Of a stretch of DNA of 64,000 bases, positions 2,263-14,132 are shown piece after piece. Every line of letters begins with the position of its first letter. Within the stretch, counting starts at the first letter, position 1. The translations under genes were made by a program, and so were the position numbers. Source of the DNA: Aquitalea aquatilis (GTDB lineage Bacteria > Pseudomonadota > Gammaproteobacteria > Burkholderiales > Chromobacteriaceae); contig NZ_CP039731.1 of NCBI RefSeq assembly GCF_005155025.1, positions 744,001 through 808,000 on the forward strand. Direction: 5' to 3'. The notes beneath the pieces were generated by a model, which was not told where the DNA came from, did not search any database, and was given only the letters and a program-made list of their open reading frames with translations.

Positions 2263-3594
2263 ATGAGCACCGCTTCCACCAGGCCGGCCAGCCAGAGCCA
2301 GGCCAGCGAACGCATTTCCGGCAAACGCTTGCGCGCCATCTTTGTCGGCTCGGCCGGCAATCTGGTCGAATGGTTCGATTTTTACTGCTATTCCGCCTTC
2401 GCCCTGTACTTTGCCAGCGCCTTTTTCCCGGCGCAGGACCCAACCGCGCAGATGATGTCCACCGCCGGCATTTTTGCCCTGGGCTTTTTCGTACGCCCCC
2501 TGGGTGGCGTGCTGTTTGGTCACCTGGGTGATCGCCACGGCCGCAAGACGGCACTGATGACTTCGGTGCTGCTGATGTGCTTTGGCTCGCTACTGATTGC
2601 CTGCGCTCCTACTTATGCCTCGGTCGGCATCCTCTCGCCGTGTATCCTGCTGCTGGCACGCCTGCTGCAAGGCCTCAGCCTGGGCGGCGAGTACGGTGCC
2701 AGTGCTACTTATCTGTCCGAAATGGCCGACTCCAAACACCGGGGTTTCTATAGCAGCTTCCAGTACGTCACCTTGATTGGCGGCCAGTTGCTGGCACTCT
2801 TGCTGCTGCTAGTGCTGCAGAAATTCCTGCTGGATGCCGCAGAACTGCGCGCCTGGGGCTGGCGCATTCCCTTTGTCATCGGTGCCGGGCTAGCCATCCT
2901 GGCCCTGCGCATGCGCCACAACATGCCGGAAACACAGTCTTTCGAAACCGCCCGCAAACAGGCAAAACCGATGGGCGGCCTGAAGCAGCTGGCACGTCAC
3001 CCCAAGGAAGTGTTGCTGGTGGTGGGCCTGACCATGGGCGGCACACTGGCCTTCTATGTCTACACCACCTATATGCAGAAATTCCTGCGCCTGTCGGTTG
3101 GCCTGACCGACGGACAAACCACCGCCGTCTCCGCCGCCTCGCTGCTGTTCGCCATGTGCTTGCAACCCCTGTACGGCGCGCTGTCCGACCGCATTGGCCG
3201 CAAGCCGCTGCTGATCGGCTTTGCCCTGTTCGGCACCCTATTTACCGTGCCGCTACTCACCGCCATCCGTCACGCCAGCGGCCCGTGGGAGGCCTTTGGC
3301 CTGATTGCCTGCGCCTGGATCATCGTCTCTGGCTATACCTCGATCAATGCGCTGGTGAAGGCCGAGCTGTTTCCCGCCACCATTCGCGCCACCGGAGTGG
3401 GCGTCCCCTACGCCTTTGCCGTATCGGTGTTTGGTGGCACTGCCGAATACCTCGCCTTGTGGTTCAAATCGATCAATATGGAAAGCGGCTTTTACTGGTA
3501 TGCCACCGCCGTGATCGGCTGCTCTTTGCTGGTCTGCTGGTTTATGCGTGACACCGCAGCCCATTCGCAGATTGATGCGGAAGCACGAGGATAA
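2263..3594 (+). CDS. kgtP: MFS metabolite/H+ symporter, KgtP (alpha-ketoglutarate permease) type
   Basis: 443-residue inner membrane transporter of the major facilitator superfamily, metabolite:H+ symporter branch. The N-terminal part has the family pattern GNLVEWFDFY, followed by the loop motif GHLGDRHGRK, the LLQGLSLGGEYG segment and a second MFS loop copy, LSDRIGRKP. These are the marks of KgtP/ProP-type symporters that take up alpha-ketoglutarate or related carboxylates with protons. ATG at 2263 has a good ribosome site (AAAGGAGA, 5-6 bases upstream). The divergent DctB-like kinase and the inverted repeat at 2138-2161 suggest induction by extracellular dicarboxylate. Family is sure; the exact substrate could be another organic acid such as shikimate, proline or citrate. 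Confidence 0.85.
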   Translation: MSTASTRPASQSQASERISGKRLRAIFVGSAGNLVEWFDFYCYSAFALYFASAFFPAQDPTAQMMSTAGIFALGFFVRPLGGVLFGHLGDRHGRKTALMTSVLLMCFGSLLIACAPTYASVGILSPCILLLARLLQGLSLGGEYGASATYLSEMADSKHRGFYSSFQYVTLIGGQLLALLLLLVLQKFLLDAAELRAWGWRIPFVIGAGLAILALRMRHNMPETQSFETARKQAKPMGGLKQLARHPKEVLLVVGLTMGGTLAFYVYTTYMQKFLRLSVGLTDGQTTAVSAASLLFAMCLQPLYGALSDRIGRKPLLIGFALFGTLFTVPLLTAIRHASGPWEAFGLIACAWIIVSGYTSINALVKAELFPATIRATGVGVPYAFAVSVFGGTAEYLALWFKSINMESGFYWYATAVIGCSLLVCWFMRDTAAHSQIDAEARG

Positions 3595-3806: not shown

Positions 3807-3847
3807 AAAAGCACCGTTTCCACTATATGGAAAGGGTGCTTTTTTTA
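3807..3847. terminator. Rho-independent terminator (works in both directions)
   Basis: AAAGCACC pairs with GGTGCTTT, with inner arms TTTCCA/TGGAAA, then a run of T on the plus strand and A-rich sequence on the other side. It lies about 210 bp downstream of kgtP. A very similar hairpin recurs at 4607-4647. Confidence 0.75.
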
Positions 3848-4606: not shown

Positions 4607-4647
4607 AAAAAAGCACCGTTTCCCATACTTCGAGACGGTGCTTTTTT
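4607..4647. terminator. Rho-independent terminator, near copy of the one at 3807
   Basis: GCACCGTTTC and GAGACGGTGC form the stem (with T-G wobble), followed by TTTTTT on the plus strand and preceded by an A-run, so it can act in both directions. It lies downstream of the minus-strand ArsR-type gene. The sequence from CGCTGAAA to the stem matches that at about 3793-3820, so the 0.75 kb between is flanked by two related terminators. Confidence 0.7.
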
Positions 4648-4744: not shown

Positions 4745-5074
4745 TTATGGGGCAATATCCTTGTCGGCTTCTTGCAGGATCAGGCCAAGCAAGCCCGGAA
4801 AGCGTTGTTCAATATCCTGACGACGCAACTGGGCCATGCGGCTGTTACCGCGATCCACCTGACGGATGAGGCCGGCTTCACGCAGGATGCGAAAGTGGTG
4901 TGAACGCGTCGCCTTGCTTAACTGCAAGCCAAACGAAGTGCAATGCCGTTCGGCATATTCCACATCTTCCAGCAGCGCCTTGACCACCCGGCGACGTGTC
5001 GGGTCTGCCAGTGCCATCAATACTTTACCCAGTTCAATTTCATCCCGTTCAGGGTGGCCTTGCTCATCCGGCAT
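4745..5074 (-). CDS. ArsR-family HTH transcriptional regulator
   Basis: About 109-residue winged-helix regulator. The segment LMALADPTRRRVVKALL is the usual start of an ArsR-type HTH, and the recognition helix region reads LSKATRSHHFRILREAGLI, close to the LSHHLK/LRxAGLI pattern. No paired Cys metal site of the classical ArsR kind is obvious, so the effector is probably not a metal. I chose ATG 5074 because GGAGAGG lies just upstream; ATG 5104 in the same frame has no ribosome site. It is divergent from the AfsA-like operon, and the palindrome at 5134-5151 between them is the likely operator. It probably represses the operon and itself; that is inference. Confidence 0.8.
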   Translation of the reverse strand: MPDEQGHPERDEIELGKVLMALADPTRRRVVKALLEDVEYAERHCTSFGLQLSKATRSHHFRILREAGLIRQVDRGNSRMAQLRRQDIEQRFPGLLGLILQEADKDIAP

Positions 5075-5133
5075 TCGTTCCTCTCCAAATAATTCATTTG
5101 ACATACTGCATGATGCTGTTCTATAAAGCACTA

Positions 5134-5151
5134 GTTCGAAGATATTCGAAC
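5134..5151. promoter_or_regulatory. Perfect palindrome, likely ArsR-type operator
   Basis: GTTCGAAGATATTCGAAC has perfect 7-bp arms around GATA. It lies in the 158-bp divergent region between the ArsR-type regulator (start 5074) and the AfsA-like gene (start 5233), where it could control both promoters. A further half-like TTCGA follows at 5153. Confidence 0.6.
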
Positions 5152-5232
5152 CTTCGACAAGTGTCAAACCATATGCGCATGACGATAGTGCGAGCCGCAA
5201 GATCTAGTGCACTTAAGAGCAGGAGTTGATCG

Positions 5233-6270
5233 ATGAAGATTGATCTTGGCCACGCATCGCCGGGCCTGGCTTACGAAAGCACCGTTCCGCGTCATATGGT
5301 GCACCGCGCCGCAGTCAGCGAAGTGTTTCTGACTGGCGGCCTGCCCTGCAGTGATCTGCATTTCCAGTGCAGTGCGCAATTACCGCGCGCGCACCGCTAT
5401 TTTAGTGATCACACCCACCCGCAGTCACACTACGACATGCTGCTGTTGCTGGAGGTGTTCCGCCAGGCTTCCATTTATGTCTCGCACGCTTTTCTGCATG
5501 TCAGCATCCAGGACAAGTTTATCTATCTGGATGGCGATACCCGGCTGCTGCAACGTTCCGCGCTATTGATGCGGGATTGCCCGGCCACCGCGCTGGTGGA
5601 TGTGAAAGTAGTGGATGAGTATGTGCGCAACGGCGTGCGTGCTGGCGTGACGCTGGACATGACCTTGCTGATCCAGGGCGAGGCCGCCGCGCACAAGCGC
5701 ATGGGCATCCGCTGGCTGGATGATGCAAGCTGGAGCCGCATGCGCGCCAAGGCAATACATAAAGTTGTCGTCAATAGCGACCCGCAGATTCAACTGCCCG
5801 CTCCTGCGCAGCCCTCGCTGGTGGGACGGGCTTACGCGGGTAATGTCGTGGTGGGAGGCGCTATCCAGGAGCAGGCTGGCGCGCTGACCGTCCCGGTGAT
5901 TGTCGATCAGGGCAATGCCGGCATTTTCGATCATCCGCTCGATCATATTCCCGGCATGTTGCTGCTGGAGGCCTTCCGTCAGACCGCGCTGATCGCGGCC
6001 AATCGTTACCAGGGCATCAATCCGGAAGAGGTCTTGCTGTCGCGCTGCCAGGTGCGCTTTACCCGCTTTGGCGAATTCGGCCTCGCCACCACTTGCCGTC
6101 TGACCAGCGATGCGGTGTGCCTGGCCGACAACCATGAAACGGTGATGATGTCCTTGCTGATCGAGCAGGAAGGCCAGGTGATCGCCACGGCGTCGCTGGA
6201 ACTGGCGGCGCTGGCCGCCAGTGCCGATGTGCGCCTGACCGCGCCGCTGACGCAGACAGCAGGGGTGTGA
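5233..6270 (+). CDS. AfsA-like (ScbA/BarX/MmfL family) butyrolactone/furan signal synthase
   Basis: 345-residue protein with two AfsA-type hot-dog repeats. Repeat one (about residues 20-165) opens with the family signature VHRAAVSEVFLT and carries RAHRYFSDH and LLLLEVFRQAS. Repeat two (about 195-330) carries IFDHPLDHIPGMLLLEAFRQTA; the Glu-x-x-Arg-Gln element recurs in each, as in the AfsA family. Known AfsA enzymes (Streptomyces A-factor, MmfL in methylenomycin furans) condense a beta-ketoacyl thioester with dihydroxyacetone phosphate to a phosphorylated butenolide or furan precursor. It starts an operon with a HAD phosphatase, a P450 and an exporter, and an AGGAG site precedes ATG 5233. AfsA proteins are classically actinobacterial, so finding a complete one here is notable. 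Product structure is inferred. Confidence 0.8.
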   Translation: MKIDLGHASPGLAYESTVPRHMVHRAAVSEVFLTGGLPCSDLHFQCSAQLPRAHRYFSDHTHPQSHYDMLLLLEVFRQASIYVSHAFLHVSIQDKFIYLDGDTRLLQRSALLMRDCPATALVDVKVVDEYVRNGVRAGVTLDMTLLIQGEAAAHKRMGIRWLDDASWSRMRAKAIHKVVVNSDPQIQLPAPAQPSLVGRAYAGNVVVGGAIQEQAGALTVPVIVDQGNAGIFDHPLDHIPGMLLLEAFRQTALIAANRYQGINPEEVLLSRCQVRFTRFGEFGLATTCRLTSDAVCLADNHETVMMSLLIEQEGQVIATASLELAALAASADVRLTAPLTQTAGV

Positions 6271-6271
6271 A

Positions 6272-6952
6272 ATGCGTACTCCGAAAATGATCTGGTTTGA
6301 TTTCGGCGGCGTGCTGTCGCCACCCATTCCGGCATTGTTCCAGCAATACCAGCACAAGACCGGCCTGGCCCCGGCGGTATTGCAGCAAGCCATGCGTGAT
6401 GTGGCCGATGACATGCACCTGCCCATGCTGGCCCCGGTGGAAAATGCTGTCATCAGCGAGGCCGAATGGGGCGAGCGCCTGGAAAACGCCTTGCGCATGC
6501 GCCACCCGGACATCGATTTGTCACGCGCCCGGCTGCGCGAATTCGGTGCGCAGTGGTTTGCCGGTGTCACCCCGAATCGGGCCATGGTACAAGCGGTACG
6601 CCGCCTGAAGGCGGCGGCATACCAAGTGGGCATCCTGACCAATAATGTGCTGGAGTGGGAGCCCCACTGGCGGCCCATGCTGCGGCTGGATAGCGTGGTG
6701 GACCTGGTGGTGGACTCATGCAAGGAAGGCTGCCGCAAACCCGATGCCCGCTTTTTTGCCATTGCAGCGCAACGGGCCGCTGTCGAGCCGGCCGATTGCC
6801 TGCTGATCGATGACGTGGGCGAAAATATCGAGGCCGCGGCCAGTCTGGGCTGGCAAACCCTGTTGTTCCAAGACAATGCCCAGGCACTGCTGGAGCTGGA
6901 AAACATCACCCGGGTGGTCCTGCGTGAGCAAATGGAGCTGGCCGCATCATGA
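6272..6952 (+). CDS. HAD-superfamily hydrolase (phosphatase) of the AfsA operon
   Basis: 226-residue haloacid dehalogenase fold protein. Motif I is IWFDFGGVLS near the N-terminus, where the first Asp would be the nucleophile but the usual second Asp (DxD) is Gly. Motif II is ILTNN, the Lys of motif III is in CRKPDARFF, and motif IV is LLIDDVGENIEAA. The cap lies between about residues 17 and 95, as in subclass I. It starts one base after the afsA-like stop and overlaps the P450 start by ATGA, so the three genes are tightly coupled. In the MmfL/MmfP furan pathway a HAD phosphatase removes the phosphate left by the AfsA step, so the same role is proposed here. The DFG instead of DFD is also seen in dehalogenase and epoxide-hydrolase-like HADs, so phosphatase activity is not certain. 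Confidence 0.75.
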   Translation: MRTPKMIWFDFGGVLSPPIPALFQQYQHKTGLAPAVLQQAMRDVADDMHLPMLAPVENAVISEAEWGERLENALRMRHPDIDLSRARLREFGAQWFAGVTPNRAMVQAVRRLKAAAYQVGILTNNVLEWEPHWRPMLRLDSVVDLVVDSCKEGCRKPDARFFAIAAQRAAVEPADCLLIDDVGENIEAAASLGWQTLLFQDNAQALLELENITRVVLREQMELAAS

Positions 6953-8166
6953 ACGCACCTGTCTCTGCCTTGGCACCGGTACGGGTGGGCGACATCCCTC
7001 ATCTGGATGCCACACCGGTATATCAAACCACCAGCCCGGCCAACGGTATCGCGCGCATCATCTTGCCCAGCGGCCATGTGGCTTATCACCTGACCCGCTA
7101 TCAGGAAGTGCAGCAAGCGCTGACCGATGCCCGCTTGGTGCGGCGGCCCTGCAATACCGAGGACGGGCCGAGCTTTCTGCCCACCATCACCCCCAACGAG
7201 CTGTTACTTAACAATGATGGCGCCAGCCATGCGCGCTTGCGCAAGGTGGTGGTGAAGGATTTCAGCGCCGCCGGGGTGGCGACACTGCACCATGCGGTGG
7301 TACGGGCCACCCACGCCAGGCTGGATGCCCTGCAATCGCGGACAGGTGCGGTCGACTTGCTGGGCCTGGTGCTGGAGTCCATTCCATCAGAAGTGGACTG
7401 CCGTTTGCTGGGTATTCCACTGGCGGATCGCAGCTATTACCGGCCGTTGACCCATACCGTACAGATTGCCGACCCGCGTGATGTGCCGGAGTTGTTGCGC
7501 CAGTTCTGGCTGGTATACGACTACCTGATGGATCTGGTGACCGGCCGCCGTACCACAGTCCCCGACGGGCTGATTCACCGCTTTGTCGCCGCGCGGGACG
7601 AAAGCACGCCCCCGCTGAACGATGAAGAACTGGTCGGTATTCTGCTGGGCATTCTGATTGGCGGTGACCAGAACATCCTGACCGTGCTGTGCAAGGTGGT
7701 CTATACGCTGCTGGCCGCACCATCCTTGTGGCAGTCGCTGCATGAGCAGCCAGAGGATATTCCCGCCATGGTGGAAGAACTGCTGCGGCTGATTCCGCTG
7801 GGGACCACCTCTACCTTCCCGCGCATCGCCCTTGAAGATGTCCATGGCAGCTTTGGTGTCATCCCGGCAGGCAGCGTGGTGTATGCCGATGTGTTTGCGG
7901 CCAATCGCGATCCCGAGGTGTTTGCCGACCCCCTGCTGATTGATCCACAACGCAATGGCAGCAAGCATTTGCAGTTCGGTTACGGCATGCATCACTGCAT
8001 GGGTGCCGCGCTGGCGCGTATGGAAATCACCACCGTGCTGGAAATACTGCTGCAGCGCATGCCAGACCTGCAACTGGCGGTGCCCGCCGCCAGCGTGCCA
8101 TGGACCGACGGCACCATTCTGCGCAGGCCCTCATCCCTGCCGGTCTGTGGGTCAACCCTTCGTTAA
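6949..8166 (+). CDS. Cytochrome P450
   Basis: 405-residue soluble bacterial P450. The heme loop FGYGMHHCMGAALAR near residue 348 contains the Cys thiolate, and the K-helix ExxR is in MVEELLRLIP. The I-helix reads ILIGGDQN where most P450s have AGx(D/E)T(T/S), so the Thr that helps protonate the bound oxygen is replaced by Gln/Asn. It overlaps the HAD gene by ATGA and lies 18 bp before the exporter. It probably hydroxylates or oxidises the AfsA-derived molecule, as P450s do in avenolide-type signal pathways. An electron-donor gene is not encoded nearby, so it must borrow ferredoxin and reductase. The altered I-helix could mean unusual chemistry, for example peroxide use or a substrate-supplied hydroxyl. 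Confidence 0.88.
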   Translation: MNAPVSALAPVRVGDIPHLDATPVYQTTSPANGIARIILPSGHVAYHLTRYQEVQQALTDARLVRRPCNTEDGPSFLPTITPNELLLNNDGASHARLRKVVVKDFSAAGVATLHHAVVRATHARLDALQSRTGAVDLLGLVLESIPSEVDCRLLGIPLADRSYYRPLTHTVQIADPRDVPELLRQFWLVYDYLMDLVTGRRTTVPDGLIHRFVAARDESTPPLNDEELVGILLGILIGGDQNILTVLCKVVYTLLAAPSLWQSLHEQPEDIPAMVEELLRLIPLGTTSTFPRIALEDVHGSFGVIPAGSVVYADVFAANRDPEVFADPLLIDPQRNGSKHLQFGYGMHHCMGAALARMEITTVLEILLQRMPDLQLAVPAASVPWTDGTILRRPSSLPVCGSTLR

Positions 8167-8184
8167 CAGGAAACGAGAATTACC

Positions 8185-9711
8185 ATGAAGCAATCCATTG
8201 CAGACAAAGGACTGCTGGCGGTCATTTTGCTGGCCATCTTTGTCGTGCCCAGTTCCATTTCCGGCACCGCCCTTGCACTGCCAGCCATTGGTCGAGACAT
8301 CCATGCCCCACTGACCAGCCTGCAGTGGGTGGTGAATGCCTTCAACCTGACCTTTGCCTGCTTCACCCTGTCATGGGGGGCGCTGGCGGACAGCTTTGGT
8401 CGCCGGACCTGCTTTAGCCTGGGCGCGGTGCTGTATGCGCTGGCTTCCTTGCTGTCGGCGCTGGCAGACAGCCCCATGCTGCTGGATCTGTCGCGGGCGC
8501 TGGCGGGTATTGGGGCGGCGGCGGTGTTCTCCTGCGGCATTGCCATTCTGTCTACCCGCTTCGAAGGGGCGGCCCGCTTGCGCGCCTTTGCCCTGTTCGG
8601 CACCGTCGCCGGGCTGGGCGTGAGTCTGGGCCCCACGCTGTCCGGGCTGATTCTGGAGCATTTCAGCTGGCGCACCATTTTCTGGTGCCACACCCTTGCC
8701 CTGCTGCTGGTCTTGCTGGGCAGCTCCATCATTCCGCGCGATCTTCCCCATCTCGGGCAAGGGCTGCAGTTTGATACCGTGGGTGCCGGCCTGTTCGTTC
8801 TGATGCTGCTCGCCCTGATGACTGCCATCGTGCAAAGCTCGCAATGGGGCTGGAACAGTGCGGGCATTCTGGCCCTGCTGGCGTTGGCCGTGGCCCTGCT
8901 GGTGCTGTTCATCTGGCAGGAAAAGCACCACCCCAAGCCCATGCTTGATCTCTCCTTGCTCACCAATCAGCGCTTTGTCGGCATGGCACTGGTGACGGTG
9001 GCCGCGTCCTTCGGCTTTGTCACCTTGCTCACCTATCTGCCCAGCTATCTTGCTGGCGTACTGCAATTGGCCCCCACCCGCACCGGGCTCACCATGTTGC
9101 TGCTCACCCTGCCCATGCTGGTCTGCCCGCTGCTGGCGGGCAAGCTGGTGGCCCATGGCGTATCCGCCAACCGCGTGCTGCATGCCAGCCTGCTCAGCTT
9201 GTTGCTGGGCATCATCTTGCTGGCCGCTGTCAGCCATCCGTCCAGCAGTTGGTGGCAACTATCCCTGCCCATGCTGCTGCTGGGCTGCGGCATGGGCCTG
9301 TCAGCTGGGCTGGTGGATGGGATGGCGCTGAAGATGGTGCCGGCGGAAAAGGCGGGCATGGCCGCTGGTTTGCTCAACACTTTCCGTCTGGGCAGCGAAG
9401 CGGTGGCCGTGGCGCTGTATGGTTCGCTGCTGGCCACGCTGCTGGGTGATGCGGCACACGGTGCGCTGACTGCCATGAGCAGCGATGCGGAACAAATACG
9501 CAACTGGATCAATGATGCAGCGGCAGGCAATCTGGCAGCGCCCGCCTCGCTCGCGGCCAGTCAGCTACAGGGCATTCTGATCCAGGGCTATGACCAGGCC
9601 TTCCATGGCGTGCTGTGGGTGCTGACCGCCATCATCATGGTGTTGACGGTGCTGATTGCCTGGCTGATCCGCCCGGCAACACAGCCCTCAGCAGCCACGC
9701 AGTCCTTGTAA
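8185..9711 (+). CDS. DHA2-type MFS exporter (14-TM) of the AfsA operon
   Basis: 508-residue inner membrane drug:H+ antiporter of the DHA2 family. It has SISGTALALPAIGRDIHAPLTSLQWVVNAFNLTFA in TM1-2 (motif D-like), GALADSFGRRTCF (motif A) between TM2 and TM3, and the motif C-like GLGVSLGPTLSGLI. The length and the hydrophobic pattern fit 14 membrane segments. It is the last gene of the operon, 18 bp after the P450, and most likely exports the pathway product, or gives resistance to it. ATG 8185 is preceded by AGGAAACGAG. A separate drug-efflux role is possible but the operon context favours product export. Confidence 0.85.
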   Translation: MKQSIADKGLLAVILLAIFVVPSSISGTALALPAIGRDIHAPLTSLQWVVNAFNLTFACFTLSWGALADSFGRRTCFSLGAVLYALASLLSALADSPMLLDLSRALAGIGAAAVFSCGIAILSTRFEGAARLRAFALFGTVAGLGVSLGPTLSGLILEHFSWRTIFWCHTLALLLVLLGSSIIPRDLPHLGQGLQFDTVGAGLFVLMLLALMTAIVQSSQWGWNSAGILALLALAVALLVLFIWQEKHHPKPMLDLSLLTNQRFVGMALVTVAASFGFVTLLTYLPSYLAGVLQLAPTRTGLTMLLLTLPMLVCPLLAGKLVAHGVSANRVLHASLLSLLLGIILLAAVSHPSSSWWQLSLPMLLLGCGMGLSAGLVDGMALKMVPAEKAGMAAGLLNTFRLGSEAVAVALYGSLLATLLGDAAHGALTAMSSDAEQIRNWINDAAAGNLAAPASLAASQLQGILIQGYDQAFHGVLWVLTAIIMVLTVLIAWLIRPATQPSAATQSL

Positions 9712-9928
9712 GCAGGCGAAAACCCGACAGGGCTAGCCGCCGCCGGCAGACCGGTTTGGCGGAGCCTTGTCATCAGCGCCGCTAACAACACCTCGCCACG
9801 TACCTGGGCCAAAGTGCCACGCAGGGGCGGGGGTTTTGTTAGCGGGTCTTAGTGGTAACAAGACTGATCCAGCCATGCGGCAACATCAGCATGCTTTGCT
9901 ATCTGGCCAAATTACTGTCGGGGGCTTT

Positions 9929-10174
9929 ATGTCCAAGTTAGTTATTGATGATGGAAAAGTGCTGCTTGATCCACTGCGCCTGAAAAAATTGCGCAAAAAC
10001 AAATGCTTTAGTCAGGATGACCTGGCAAGGCATGCCAGCAACAGTCGCTGTCCGGTATCCAGCGCCTCGATCAAACGGGCCGAACTGGGCTCGCCGGTAC
10101 GCTACCGCACCGCCAAAAACCTGGCCTTGGCCCTGGATGTGGAAGTCGACAGCCTGTTTGCCCGCTTCGAATAA
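9929..10174 (+). CDS. Small XRE-type HTH regulator
   Basis: 81-residue protein, mostly one Cro/C1-type HTH. The pattern LRLKKLRKNKCFSQDDLARHA...VSSASIKRAELGSPVRYRTAKNLALALDVEVDSLF matches helix 1 through helix 5 of the XRE fold, including the usual ending 'ALA..L.v....L'. ATG 9929 follows GGGGG at a workable distance; longer in-frame starts exist up to 9767 but add sequence without domain support. It lies 145 bp upstream of an unknown secreted-like or cytosolic 355-residue gene on the same strand and may regulate it. Confidence 0.7.
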   Translation: MSKLVIDDGKVLLDPLRLKKLRKNKCFSQDDLARHASNSRCPVSSASIKRAELGSPVRYRTAKNLALALDVEVDSLFARFE

Positions 10175-10318
10175 TAAATCGACGATAATCATTTGCGACC
10201 GGTTTGATATTTATCTGATACCAAGATGATGCGGATGTGATGCTGAAAGTCATTCTCCAGATTTGTATATTTAATGTGCTGATGACTCAGCATATTATTC
10301 ATTTTGGAGAAATTGCAA

Positions 10319-11386
10319 ATGGCACAGACTTACAATATCTATGTAATCAATAAATCAGCAAATACACAGAATTTCTGGTTGTTTTTGAAACCACCGCAAG
10401 CGCTAGAGGCTGACCCTGCCGTATTTGCCAATTCCAGCGCTTGCCTGACTATCGACAGCAATTCGCAAAGTTTGAATAATTTCGGCGTTCCGCTGCAATA
10501 TCGTGTGGGCTCGGGTGCCAGCAATCAGGCTGTCGGCCTGGAGGTGCAGATTTCTTCCAATGTTTCACTGGATGCAGATATTAACCAGGCCTTTCAGGCC
10601 AATTACCAGGAAACGGTTCCGCCAAAAAAAGGGCCGACCATGAAACAAACCGGTGCTTCCACTAAGGATGGCACCATTCAGATCACCAGCAATAATTTTG
10701 ACAAACCCGGCAACGAAGAAAACAGCTGGTTTTCCAATATGAGTTTCGGCATTCAATCGGCAGCCGGTTTTATTGGCATGACCTGGTCGCCGGCACCGGG
10801 CATGACCCGTACCCTGGAGCCGAAGTTTTCCTTTTATATCAGCACCGGCTCCTTCGATTACAACTCACTGGCGCAATGGACCGATGTATCCAGCCAGGCG
10901 GCTACCGTGCAGCTGTCCGACTTCAAGCAATTCAATTGCACGGTGACCCTGCTGCCCAATGGCACATGGACTGTTTCCCCGGGCCGCCCGCCGCAGCAAG
11001 TCTCCGCCCAGGCTTATCAGGCACTGGTTTCCAGCCACCAGGCACTGTGCAATTCCCATGCCGAACTGATCAGCCTAGCTGATGCCATTGCTCCGCTGGG
11101 TGACGGCCTTGCCGCCACAGCCCAGCTGGATGTGATTACCGAAGTGGACTGGGATAATCAGCTCAAAGCAGTGAACGGCCCCCTCACATTCCTGTCCGGC
11201 CGCCTGCGCGTGGGCACGGCATTGGCAGCCGGCTTTGGCTTTTTCATCCTCAGCGGGGTGCGCTTTACCATCAAGAACGGTAGCTCGGGCGGTACGCAAT
11301 TCGACTTTGAATACAACGGCACCCAGAGCGCCCAAAACATCAAGGATCTGCTGCATGCCGGAGTAGAAGCAGAATTCCGTAAATAA
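10319..11386 (+). CDS. Unknown 355-residue beta-rich protein
   Basis: I do not recognise the family. ATG 10319 has a clear ribosome site (TTTGGAGAAATT). There is no signal peptide. Residues 1-215 are rich in Ser, Thr, Asn and aromatic residues with alternating patterns typical of a beta-sandwich (for example NIYVINKS, FWLFLKPP, SWFSNMSFGI, FIGMTWSPAPG). Residues 235-355 differ: a helical stretch full of Gln/His/Ala, then a small-residue hydrophobic segment (GTALAAGFGFFILSGV) and a C-terminal strand-rich end. The pattern of a beta domain plus a hydrophobic hairpin would fit a pore-forming or carbohydrate-binding protein, but that is only a guess. A strong terminator follows, so it is monocistronic or paired with the XRE gene upstream. 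Confidence 0.7.
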   Translation: MAQTYNIYVINKSANTQNFWLFLKPPQALEADPAVFANSSACLTIDSNSQSLNNFGVPLQYRVGSGASNQAVGLEVQISSNVSLDADINQAFQANYQETVPPKKGPTMKQTGASTKDGTIQITSNNFDKPGNEENSWFSNMSFGIQSAAGFIGMTWSPAPGMTRTLEPKFSFYISTGSFDYNSLAQWTDVSSQAATVQLSDFKQFNCTVTLLPNGTWTVSPGRPPQQVSAQAYQALVSSHQALCNSHAELISLADAIAPLGDGLAATAQLDVITEVDWDNQLKAVNGPLTFLSGRLRVGTALAAGFGFFILSGVRFTIKNGSSGGTQFDFEYNGTQSAQNIKDLLHAGVEAEFRK

Positions 11387-11483: not shown

Positions 11484-12371
11484 TCAGTAGCGCCGCAAAC
11501 CATGCAGATAGCCATCCACAGCATGGCTGACCACTTCCGACAAACGTTCACAGCCCGTGGCAGCCGCTGACTCTGCACGATAGAGCATGAGGCGAATCTC
11601 TGGCAGTGCGGGTAGATCCTGACGCAGCTGCAGCGTATCCGGCAGGCCAAGCGGAGTCCGTACCGTCAGCCCCAGCCCGGCGGCAACCGCGGCCCAAATG
11701 CCACTCAGGCTGCTGCTACAAAACGCCTGCCTCCAGCCAAGGCCGGCTTGTTCCAAGGCAGTACAAGCGGCAGCGCGCATCAGGCATGGTGCCTCAAACG
11801 CCACCAAGGGAATGGCGCTGTCTGGCACACAGGTCACAGGGCTGGACTTGCTGTCTATCCAGCACAGCGGCAGCGTCCCCATCACCTGCTGATAGGGCCA
11901 TTGCTGGCCACCATCCCAGGCCAATACCAGATCCAGCTCTCCCCTGGCCAATCCATCCAGCAGTTGCTGATTGCGCGCCACTTTTACATCCAGACGAAAC
12001 TGCGGATGGGCCCGCGTGAATTGCCCAAGAATGGCCGGCAACAGTGATTCGCCAAAGTCGTCCTGCATGCCGAAACGTAGCCATCCTTGCTCCAGCCCGC
12101 TGCCCTGCACGGCTTGCACCGCCTCATCATTCAGTGCCAGCAGCCGGCGTGCATAGGCCAGCATGATTTCCCCGGCGGGCGTCAGCGCCAGTCCCCTGCC
12201 CGCCTTGCGCATCAGGGCTTGGCCAGCCTGTTCTTCCAGCTTTTTCAGTTGTGCGCTGATGGCCGATGTCGACCGGTTCATCCGCTGCGCGGCCAGCGCA
12301 AAGCTGCCCAGCTCCACACCAGCGACAAAACTGCGCAACACATCCAGATCCAGACTGATGCGACTCGCCAT
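11484..12371 (-). CDS. LysR-family transcriptional regulator
   Basis: 295-residue LysR regulator. The N-terminal winged HTH is complete: LDVLRSFVAGVELGSFALAAQRMNRSTSAISAQLKKLEEQAGQALM, followed by the linker GRGLALTPAGEIMLAYARRLL. Residues from about 92 on form the two-lobed effector-binding domain (GWLRFGMQDDFGESLLPAILGQF). It is divergent from a carboxymuconolactone-decarboxylase-like gene and DUF4865; such LysR/CMD/DUF4865 groups recur in proteobacteria, so these two are the likely targets. The palindrome at 12408-12422 is a candidate binding site. The effector is unknown. Confidence 0.88.
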   Translation of the reverse strand: MASRISLDLDVLRSFVAGVELGSFALAAQRMNRSTSAISAQLKKLEEQAGQALMRKAGRGLALTPAGEIMLAYARRLLALNDEAVQAVQGSGLEQGWLRFGMQDDFGESLLPAILGQFTRAHPQFRLDVKVARNQQLLDGLARGELDLVLAWDGGQQWPYQQVMGTLPLCWIDSKSSPVTCVPDSAIPLVAFEAPCLMRAAACTALEQAGLGWRQAFCSSSLSGIWAAVAAGLGLTVRTPLGLPDTLQLRQDLPALPEIRLMLYRAESAAATGCERLSEVVSHAVDGYLHGLRRY

Positions 12372-12407
12372 GACAGTCCTAAAAAATTGAACAATTAATC
12401 AAAAACA

Positions 12408-12422
12408 TTTTGATTATCAAAA
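12408..12422. promoter_or_regulatory. Palindrome TTTTGATTATCAAAA, candidate LysR box
   Basis: Seven-bp arms around a central T, with the T-N11-A spacing expected of LysR-type sites. It lies in the 103-bp divergent region between the LysR gene (start 12371) and the CMD-like gene (start 12475), in very A+T-rich DNA. Confidence 0.55.
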
Positions 12423-12474
12423 TTATTCTGACTGGCTAAGCTGGCTTCTGTCAAAACCGGCCAAGGAGTCCACC

Positions 12475-12732
12475 ATGACCACCGCTTCGTCAAACAGCAT
12501 GCAGAGCATGGCCACCGCAGCGGCCAAGCTGGCCAACATCACCCCATCACTGTTAGTTGGCGGCATCTGGCAACGCACGCGACTCAGCCCGCAGAAGCGC
12601 AGTATCGCGACAGTAGCGGCGCTGATCGCGCGGTACCGGCGGGAGCAGCTGCCCTGTCCTTTGCAGCTGGCCATGGATAACGGCGTCAGCCGTGGCGAAC
12701 CGGGCAAACGCATCACCCACCTGGCCTTTTAG
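12475..12732 (+). CDS. Short carboxymuconolactone-decarboxylase (CMD) family protein, C-terminally truncated
   Basis: 85 residues. The part LSPQKRSIATVAALIARYRREQLPCPLQLAMDNGVS...KRITHLAF matches the CMD/AhpD-like core in order, but the protein stops at 'THLAF' where relatives continue with a Tyr-Ala-Gly-Trp stretch of another 15-40 residues. Typical family members are about 100-150 residues. The first helix pair is therefore present but the end is missing. The stop TAG is part of the AGGAG site of the next gene, so the shortened form is stably placed in the operon. The AAGGAG ribosome site before ATG 12475 is good. It may be a decayed gene or a reduced functional version; the activity is doubtful. 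Confidence 0.65.
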   Translation: MTTASSNSMQSMATAAAKLANITPSLLVGGIWQRTRLSPQKRSIATVAALIARYRREQLPCPLQLAMDNGVSRGEPGKRITHLAF

Positions 12733-12742
12733 GAGTAAACCC

Positions 12743-13306
12743 ATGCTTGCCATGCAATACCGCTTTACCCTGCCAGCCGACTACGACATGGCCATCATCA
12801 GGCAGCGCATCCATGAGCGTGGACATCTGCTGGATGGCTTCCCCCACCTTGAGTGGAAGGCTTATCTCTGGTCGCAAAAGGATGGCCGACACCCAGGCTC
12901 GGTCAATGCCTATGCCCCGCTTTATCTGTGGCAGGACAACGCAGGGATCAACCAGTTTCTGGCCAGCCCCGGCTTCCGCGCCGTGTGCGAAGACTTTGGC
13001 AGGCCGCAAATCGATATCTGGTCGGTATGGGACTGCACGGGAAACCAGGCCATGCCTGCTGCTGCGATTTGCTACCAACAAACGCAAGCCATTGCACCAG
13101 GGACATCGCTCGCCGCGCTGCGCCAGCAGGAACACGAACAGGCCGCCAGGCTGCTCCAGCAAGGAGCCTTGTCCGTGCTAAGCGCTTACGACCCCCAACA
13201 ATGGCGCACATTGCGCATGTCGGCTTGGCCTAATGAGCAAGAGTTCATGCCACAGCCAATCCACGGCGAGTGCTATCAGATTGGCTATGTGGCGATGAAG
13301 CGATGA
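12743..13306 (+). CDS. DUF4865 family protein
   Basis: 187-residue protein of unknown function. It begins MLAMQYRFTLPADYDMAIIRQRI, and carries LDGFPHLEWKAYL, YAPLYLWQDNAGINQFL and FGRPQIDIWSVWD, all in the order of the DUF4865 family, which has a monooxygenase/ferredoxin-like look with an aromatic core. ATG 12743 follows AGGAG closely; an upstream in-frame start at 12692 is not needed. It is co-transcribed with the CMD-like gene and probably controlled by the divergent LysR regulator. The substrate is unknown. Confidence 0.8.
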   Translation: MLAMQYRFTLPADYDMAIIRQRIHERGHLLDGFPHLEWKAYLWSQKDGRHPGSVNAYAPLYLWQDNAGINQFLASPGFRAVCEDFGRPQIDIWSVWDCTGNQAMPAAAICYQQTQAIAPGTSLAALRQQEHEQAARLLQQGALSVLSAYDPQQWRTLRMSAWPNEQEFMPQPIHGECYQIGYVAMKR

Positions 13307-13454
13307 TGGCGCTGAATTACCATGCAGGAGACGCCTCCAGCATGGACTGTCCAGCATCCTGCAAACCTTGAAACCGGAAATTTCCTGGCCATCCAGGCCA
13401 GCAATAGCCAGCGCGGTGGCCGCGCCATTCACAAATGGTCAGTCGGCCGCGCCA

Positions 13455-14132
13455 CTACCCGGCCACCATGCGCTGCATCGATAGCTCATCGTGCAACCAG
13501 GTGTCGTCGAAGAAGGTCACTTCGCCAGTGGCCAGATTGTGTTTGGCACCGATGATGCCGATCTCGCCGGCGGCGATCATCTGCCCAAGGATGTAGCTGC
13601 GGTTGATGATGGACCGCACCGAGCGGCGCACATTGAGGTCGGCAACATTCTCCACAAAGGTGGTGTTCTGCGAATTGCGCCTGGCCGGGTCCAGGGTGTG
13701 GCTCTCTTCGTACACCGCAGGCTGGATCTTCGACAGTAGCTCGGTCAGATTGCCCAGCTCCACATGGTCGCAGGCCCCCTTGATTGCGCCGCAGGAGGTG
13801 TGGCCGAGCACCACAATGAGTTTTGATCCGGCCACGTGGCAGGCAAACTCCAGGCTGCCGAGGATGTCGGTGTTGATCACATTGCCGGCAATGCGTACCG
13901 AGAAGATGTCGCCCAGGCCTTGGTCGAAGATCAACTCGGCCGATGTGCGGCTGTCGATACAACTGACGACGGTGGCAAATGGCCATTGGCCGTCGCGCGT
14001 CTCGTTGGCCTGCTGCAGCAAATCGCGGCTGGCACGCAGGTTATTGACGAAGCGGGCATTGCCTTCCTTGAGCAACTGCAAGGCAAGTGGCGGGCTGCAA
14101 GTGGCTTGGGTTTCGGAGGTATGTGTTTTCAT
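13455..14132 (-). CDS. Beta-class carbonic anhydrase
   Basis: 225-residue beta-carbonic anhydrase, which interconverts CO2 and bicarbonate with an active-site zinc. The zinc ligand and dyad motif CIDSR and the second ligand pair in GHTSCGAIKGA are intact, as is the RIAGNVIN segment. I chose ATG 14132; a TTG 27 bases upstream (14159) is also open. An N-terminal extension of about 20 residues is polar and not a convincing signal peptide. It stands opposite a CbbR/CynR-like LysR gene, which probably controls it, as in cyn operons or carbon-assimilation genes. Confidence 0.9.
   Translation of the reverse strand: MKTHTSETQATCSPPLALQLLKEGNARFVNNLRASRDLLQQANETRDGQWPFATVVSCIDSRTSAELIFDQGLGDIFSVRIAGNVINTDILGSLEFACHVAGSKLIVVLGHTSCGAIKGACDHVELGNLTELLSKIQPAVYEESHTLDPARRNSQNTTFVENVADLNVRRSVRSIINRSYILGQMIAAGEIGIIGAKHNLATGEVTFFDDTWLHDELSMQRMVAG

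Follow-up and report, generated by a model that had tools for sequence, protein, structure and literature searches.

We questioned what a compact run of four genes in the freshwater bacterium Aquitalea aquatilis makes and how it is controlled. The genes lie in a stretch of 64,000 nucleotides (contig NZ_CP039731.1, positions 744,001 to 808,000 of the forward strand; hereafter the window) and encode an AfsA-type protein, a HAD hydrolase, a cytochrome P450 and a major facilitator superfamily (MFS) exporter with 14 predicted transmembrane (TM) segments; a gene for an ArsR-type regulator is divergent from them. A first-pass annotation of the window had described these genes, and gene calls, Pfam and NCBIfam matches and spacings (1 bp between AfsA and HAD, a 4-bp overlap of HAD and P450, 18 bp between P450 and MFS) showed the description to be accurate. 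In Aquitalea the four-gene set (hereafter the block) is compact and mobile, and its most likely role is to make and export a small molecule predicted to be of the butenolide type.

Gene content and probable product

The AfsA protein contains two PF03756 stretches (2.5e-42) and passes the NCBIfam model for ScbA/BarX proteins (NF041195; 207.9 bits vs a cut-off of 200). Each repeat has an ExxRQ motif (E74xxR77Q78 and E246xxR249Q250), and motifs in both repeats are common to all 20 two-repeat AfsA proteins compared; we take the Glu and Arg of each to be active-site residues. Loss of the hot-dog Glu and Arg had been named in the first-pass annotation as telling against its reading, and at the sequence level both appear to be retained in both repeats. 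The protein is presumed to be a butenolide synthase that condenses dihydroxyacetone phosphate (DHAP). A search of the Protein Data Bank (PDB) with AfsA gave three chance-like matches (best 0.0098) and no homologue.

The HAD protein matched PF00702 (1.6e-13; 51.9 bits vs a cut-off of 26.4) and scored under the cut-off of TIGR02247 (118.8 vs 125.4 bits). Its gene adjoins AfsA in all nine loci with the full block (listed below), and a HAD gene stands beside AfsA in three of the four actinobacterial HAD matches opened (among 24 records). The P450 (PF00067, 1.3e-19) has a complete heme Cys motif and ExxR in 9/9 full-block loci. The exporter matched PF07690 (1e-45) and the EmrB/DHA2 model TIGR00711 (3.7e-48, but 164.5 bits, below the cut-off of 230.2), and its hydropathy plot has 14 peaks.

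Published pathways suggest what such genes may make (here and below, published systems are compared as described in the accessible text of the reports cited). The AfsA-type domain of gladiostatin assembly condensed DHAP in vitro and, with a phosphatase, gave a 2-acyl-3-hydroxymethylbutenolide (PMC7756379), and the Streptomyces rochei P450 SrrO performs the final-step side-chain oxidation of butenolides (PMC7564063, PMC12301235). Because of these precedents, the best reading of the product is a 2-acyl-3-hydroxymethylbutenolide-type compound that would be exported; genes and precedent together support the earlier proposal of an AfsA, HAD, P450 and exporter operon for a small DHAP-derived butenolide or furan. 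The accompanying analogy to avenolide-type P450s is a poor one. Avenolide synthase is an acyl-CoA oxidase (PMC12301235), so we dropped an avenolide-type pathway, and S. rochei SrrX/SrrP/SrrO is the better comparison.

Relation to known AfsA systems

By gene description, SrrX/SrrP/SrrO is the nearest analogue: the SRB set of S. rochei (SrrX/SrrP/SrrO/SrrG; PMC7564063, PMC12301235) likewise has genes for an AfsA homologue, a phosphatase and a P450 at a single locus. The window block differs in that neither a dehydrogenase of the SrrG type, nor a thioesterase, nor a repressor of the TetR type was found nearby, and in that it adds an exporter, a Gram-negative host and ArsR or, elsewhere, extracytoplasmic function (ECF) sigma factor and FecR genes. 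An A-factor-like cluster of Pseudomonas Ps664 also comprises an AfsA-like protein, hydrolase, P450 and MFS transporter, and its authors likewise remark on a missing reductase (PMC8719888); it is a list entry there, given with neither regulator nor product, and is likened by description.

Other Gram-negative AfsA systems share fewer features. The gladiostatin/gladiofungin cluster of Burkholderia gladioli (PMC7756379, PMC10574677) has an AfsA domain and a HAD phosphatase gene, but that AfsA is a chain-release domain of a polyketide synthase (PKS), whereas the window AfsA is a free two-repeat enzyme in a block without a PKS. The gamma-butyrolactone cluster of Ruegeria pomeroyi DSS-3 (PMC7426152), thought to be horizontally acquired, likewise has AfsA with a transporter and regulators; a P450 is unmentioned in the main text of that report, and the likeness is again by description. 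Chromobacterium subtsugae, of the same bacterial family as the window's host, has an AfsA/HAD-IB/CdeAB-OprM locus in which AfsA adjoins a HAD gene and a set of exporter genes, but the HAD is of the HAD-IB type, the regulator is MarR and a P450 is not among the genes named (PMC12114271). G464, a genome from another genus of Chromobacteriaceae, encodes a 262-aa AfsA beside a HAD gene and resembles this locus. In the actinobacterial locus of Rhodococcus fascians pFiD188 (L069), AfsA, HAD, MFS and monooxygenase genes follow in tight order (HAD 34% identical), but a flavin adenine dinucleotide (FAD) monooxygenase and an aldo/keto reductase replace the P450 and a TetR gene is nearby; these genes, from AfsA to the aldo/keto reductase, lie on one strand with near-zero gaps, as a parallel make-and-export set.

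Gram-negative AfsA is therefore not new, given prior work in Burkholderia, Ruegeria and Chromobacterium and the four-gene set listed for Ps664 (PMC8719888). The chemistry of AfsA-type pathways is already known; the mobile Gram-negative form differs in its control genes (an ArsR operator vs ECF/FecR/TonB). The literature searched, which covered few subscription papers, contained no account of AfsA with ArsR or ECF/FecR/TonB circuits, nor of an Aquitalea butyrolactone.

Recurrence and mobility

Nine genomes have the four genes in one and the same order: three of Aquitalea (G000, G004, G006), a Janthinobacterium metagenome-assembled genome (MAG), G931 (presumably Burkholderiaceae), and G1120, G1410, G1417 and G1545 (presumably Pseudomonadaceae). 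They span at least three families. Because this order recurs in eight genomes besides that of the window, the block is not a chance arrangement. Spacings in Janthinobacterium are +1, −4 and +20 bp. AfsA identity to the window protein is 47–94% across the eight further genomes, and an A. aquatica contig encodes an AfsA 92% identical. A tenth genome, G1138, has AfsA and HAD fused in a single open frame of 646 aa, and the 19.5 kb read there (L065) contained neither a P450 nor an MFS match; the frame lies at ~8776–10425 on the minus strand, and a TraG/TraD-like coupling-protein gene lies at 11889–14042.

The block is rare. In Chromobacteriaceae, PF03756 was detected in 4 of 61 genomes (the fourth being G464) and the block's AfsA in three, all Aquitalea (3/10), so the idea that the block might be a trait of this family did not hold. 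Elsewhere, across samples that overlap, PF03756 was found in 3/398 genomes of the phylum (one weak) and the block's own profile in 2/369 of the class (the window's genome and one weak match). Matches were obtained in 13/299 genomes of the family of G313 (one strong, G931), 1/25 of the genus of G118 and 21/398 of the family of G118 (four strong: G1120, G1138, G1410, G1417); we take the last family to be Pseudomonadaceae from 16S patterns. Twelve of its genomes (G1177, G1233, G1357, G1362, G1395, G1403, G1411, G1427, G1429, G1454, G1478, G1493) have weak AfsA-like stretches within open frames of 1142–1185 aa, possibly PKS chain-release domains. A scan of a contig collection recovered two loci, those of A. 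aquatica and the Janthinobacterium MAG. G931 is near Caballeronia: 7 kb beside its block (the whole query) was 91% identical to a Caballeronia sp. M1242 record, and no Caballeronia, the M1242 record included, was among the organisms matched in an AfsA search of a plasmid collection. One Klebsiella plasmid record in that collection had an AfsA-like match.

In Aquitalea the block is an island. Alignment of the window to four relatives (G001, G002, G004, G007) stops at 3582–3586, the end of the upstream MFS gene; three of them (G001, G002, G007) have no PF03756 match, and the G004 block lies ~2.5 Mb from the orthologue of that MFS gene. The absence of AfsA, the end of alignment just upstream and the different location in G004 together indicate that the block is mobile. 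Two further genomes (G003, G005) have the upstream MFS gene and no PF03756. A small helix-turn-helix (HTH) gene and a 360-aa orphan accompany the block in the relocated G004 copy as well. Within 3.5–12.5 kb there were three direct-repeat families, none bracketing the block, and no inverted pair of at least 18 nt. Phage or viral carriage was dropped, with no phage match and none in viral contigs under strict peptide patterns.

In an AfsA tree (22 rows, some on long branches), the ten actinobacterial AfsA proteins included formed their own group (98/75) with the block proteins outside it, and recent import from Streptomyces was dropped. The block proteins formed one group with support of only 47/0, so a single origin of the block is not established.

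A conserved palindrome at the ArsR gene

The regulator matched PF01022 (5.1e-8) and PF12840 (1.3e-7), both above cut-off, and is 69.5% identical to its Janthinobacterium orthologue (L012); its start was taken as the ATG at 5074, with GGAGAG just upstream, and not the longer TTG frame reaching 5200. Cys45, the sole cysteine of the window ArsR, is kept in 4/4 orthologues, and the Janthinobacterium protein has a second Cys. With one Cys, no CxC-type site and 45.2 bits against the cut-off of 55 for NF033788, a classical metal-sensing ArsR was dropped. The nearest solved chain is 7txm_A (5.8e-19), labelled just Transcriptional regulator.

The 158-bp gap between ArsR and AfsA contains one palindrome, GTTCGAAGATATTCGAAC, at 5134–5151 (Table 1), and Janthinobacterium has GTAGGTTCTATTTTTATAGAACCTAC at the matching place; the two share GTTC-N10-GAAC. 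Each of the four loci with ArsR has this motif in its ArsR–AfsA gap, 67–71 bp from the ArsR start and 90–97 bp from the AfsA start, and the motif occurs once in the 64-kb window and once each in L009, L011 and L012. No AfsA upstream region of the five full-block loci without ArsR has one. Among the loci without ArsR, including the fused one (L065), the motif is missing from L037, L063, L065 and L108, and its occurrences in L062 (two) and L064 (one) are away from the AfsA upstream regions. Shuffled regions of the window, A. aquatica and Janthinobacterium, the three covered by these tests, contained the motif in 2/2000, 5/2000 and 2/2000 cases, respectively. Arm length by itself is a weak argument, being reached in 102/2000 window shuffles (A. 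aquatica 33, Janthinobacterium 2), and the shared motif at a shared place is the stronger evidence. The finding of this palindrome between ArsR and AfsA is new here.

On the plus strand, a TTGACA-18-TATAAA sequence identified by eye ends 6 bp before the palindrome, with its TTGACA at the same place in 3/3 Aquitalea; the promoter scan requires T at the last position and hence did not list it. The scan did report a candidate arsR promoter that overlaps the palindrome. In Janthinobacterium, TTGACA is present on both strands and the scan picked other sites, so we claim palindrome–promoter overlap for Aquitalea alone. The suggestion that an ArsR-type regulator takes the place of the Streptomyces TetR receptor appears sound for the window, with a candidate operator conserved to Janthinobacterium.

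Table 1. Features of the block and its surroundings (window coordinates)
Feature	Position	Strand	Basis or remark
ArsR-family repressor candidate, 109 aa	4745..5074	-	PF01022, PF12840; divergent from AfsA
AfsA/ScbA-type phosphorylated-butenolide synthase (predicted), 345 aa, two repeats	5233..6270	+	PF03756, NF041195, motif
HAD-IA hydrolase, presumed phosphatase	6272..6952	+	PF00702; motifs DFGGV (motif I), RKPD, DDVGEN
Cytochrome P450	6949..8166	+	PF00067; FGYGMHHCMG heme motif, ExxR, I-helix GGDQN
DHA2/EmrB-like 14-TM MFS exporter	8185..9711	+	PF07690, TIGR00711 (below cut-off), 14 hydropathy peaks
Candidate sigma-70 promoter of operon, TTGACA-18-TATAAA	5098..5127	+	By eye
Candidate ArsR operator, GTTCGAA-N4-TTCGAAC	5134..5151	.	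Inverted repeat
Candidate arsR promoter, TTGACA-17-TATCTT	5139..5167	-	Promoter scan
Small HTH protein, weak RstR-like match	9929..10174	+	Adjoins block in 3/3 Aquitalea loci
360-aa protein, no Pfam or NCBIfam match	10304..11386	+	Adjoins block in 3/3 Aquitalea loci

The interval from the upstream MFS gene to ArsR contains two 39-nt hairpin-like direct repeats (82% identical, ending in a T-run), at 3807–3845 and 4609–4647. Further along the window, G+C is 0.42–0.57 at ~24000–57000, compared with 0.57–0.66 before 10 kb and 0.56–0.63 after 57 kb, as in a large insert or prophage.

Control genes of Pseudomonas-type loci

All four Pseudomonas-type full-block loci (G1120, G1410, G1417, G1545) have homologues of an ECF sigma factor and FecR past the MFS gene, encoded on its strand, and a TonB receptor gene that diverges from AfsA; Pfam confirmed FecR, ECF and STN/plug/barrel domains in representatives. 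The receptor heads a sulfur-type uptake operon, and aldolase, family-3 binding protein and SsuA-like homologues were also present in 4/4. In G1417 and G1120, the receptor is followed in turn by a class II aldolase, a family-3 binding protein, two permeases, a cystathionine beta-lyase (TIGR01324, 457 bits vs a cut-off of 366), an SsuA-like protein and a second TonB receptor of siderophore type (both below cut-off), and an M19 dipeptidase. Searched alone in 119 genomes, the first receptor gave 27 matches at 1e-150, of which near ones were confined to its source genome and G1545 (93%), the next being 48%. G1545, found by its receptor, carries the block, which independently suggests that the two are linked.

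These loci resemble FecI/FecR/FecA-type cell-surface signalling in that genes for an ECF sigma factor, FecR and an STN-domain TonB receptor flank the block, unlike the Aquitalea window, which has no such genes; the literature searched contained no account joining FecR/TonB surface signalling with AfsA. In G931, neither ArsR nor the ECF/FecR/TonB set was matched. The ArsR circuit proposed earlier is accordingly present in 4/9 full-block loci and fails as a rule, with ECF/FecR/TonB genes instead in four and no regulator found in one. Regulators differ while the four genes stay, so synthesis and export are kept and control is swapped.

Proposed scheme and alternatives

On balance, we consider it probable that the window holds a make-and-export operon for an AfsA-type butenolide, with ArsR repressing from the palindrome. 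The genes and their order, their recurrence, the island and the conserved palindrome are observed; the enzyme steps, repression, ligand and purpose are what we infer from the genes and their analogues. From a beta-ketoacyl thioester and DHAP, AfsA would form a phosphorylated 2-acyl-butenolide by condensation; the HAD protein would strip the phosphate, the P450 would oxidise the product, probably on the acyl chain as SrrO does, and the DHA2 pump would export it. ArsR may repress its own gene and the operon through one palindrome lying across both candidate promoters, until released by a ligand, for which the product or some other thiol-reactive compound is plausible.

Several observations weigh against this scheme. 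The AfsA structure model, built from a 3-sequence alignment, is too poor for placing Glu and Arg (mean predicted local distance difference test score 42.5). Motif I of the HAD protein reads DFGGV in 10/10 copies (nine blocks and the fused protein) and has no second Asp (DxD), so phosphatase activity is not certain; among aligned HADs that neighbour actinobacterial AfsA, three of four read DFGGV or DYGGV and the fourth is a HAD-IB (DVDET). YihX, a weak PDB match of the HAD protein, is a phosphatase with a similar motif I. The P450 I helix reads GGDQN in 9/9 in place of the usual acid-alcohol (acid-Thr) pair, aligning with AGYES of the nearest solved relative, 5uhu, so the reaction may not be plain hydroxylation. 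Among ten proteins scanned (2.3–13.3 kb), there was no A-factor-type reductase or SRB-type (SrrG) dehydrogenase. ArsR was not found in 5/9 full-block loci, and promoter-like sites are not commoner than in shuffles (window, 1 vs a mean of 0.6; Janthinobacterium, 2 vs 1.1), which leaves the arsR promoter weak by itself.

Given this scheme, we assessed what the product might be for. It is a real possibility, short of an even chance, that the operon yields an antimicrobial or some other reactive metabolite that is secreted, with ArsR governing self-protection and export. An exporter within the operon is consistent with this, as are the bioactivity of the butenolide gladiostatin (PMC7756379) and the requirement of the R. 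pomeroyi AfsA cluster for diffusible killing (PMC7426152), although no immunity gene was identified here. PyeR, an ArsR repressor of Pseudomonas aeruginosa, has an MFS transporter and a xenobiotic reductase under its control (PMC7950407); a likeness of the window ArsR to PyeR is a suggestion, by analogy.

Rather doubtful, if a little less favoured, is a quorum signal as in Streptomyces, received by ArsR (Aquitalea, Janthinobacterium) or by a TonB/FecR/ECF relay (Pseudomonas-type loci). Family precedent and the regulator genes in 8/9 full-block loci speak for a signal; in R. pomeroyi, moreover, transcription of the afsA cluster depends on afsA itself (PMC7426152), and in C. subtsugae the AfsA gene is under quorum control (PMC12114271). 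However, regulators vary by lineage while the enzymes are constant, the block is rare and patchy, and a dedicated exporter and P450 would suit any secreted metabolite. There was also no TetR/ScbR-type receptor among the same ten nearby proteins, the remaining genome not having been searched for one.

An improbable extension joins both regulatory forms through a thiol-reactive, unreduced 2-acyl-butenolide acting as a cue, either as a sulfur-fishing agent or as a signal read at the surface. In Aquitalea and Janthinobacterium, ArsR would sense the butenolide by reaction at conserved Cys45. In Pseudomonas, the linked TonB receptors would capture the butenolide or its thiol adduct and signal through FecR and the ECF factor, while the M19 dipeptidase, cystine-type binding protein and cystathionine beta-lyase might strip adducts by a mercapturate-like route. 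If true, this would be a use of an AfsA product undescribed in the literature found.

Least credible, and very improbable, is that HAD and P450 act off the AfsA pathway in a loosely co-transferred gene set, a reading that would fit their non-standard catalytic motifs and the lone AfsA-HAD pair of G1138 but runs against the gene order shared by nine genomes from three or more families, the overlapping genes in the window, the AfsA-HAD fusion itself and the retention of the same motifs in the copies compared.

Implications

If the make-and-export reading is right, actinobacterial hormone chemistry is passed around among Gram-negatives in a small cassette whose enzymes and exporter stay while its control is exchanged, between a cytoplasmic ArsR switch (in some Betaproteobacteria) and an outer-membrane receptor/FecR/ECF relay (in Pseudomonas-type loci). 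It would also supply a P450 family whose altered catalytic helix invites study, and, in the operator and the surface-signalling system, two genetic handles with which the roles of butenolides in Gram-negative bacteria could be probed.

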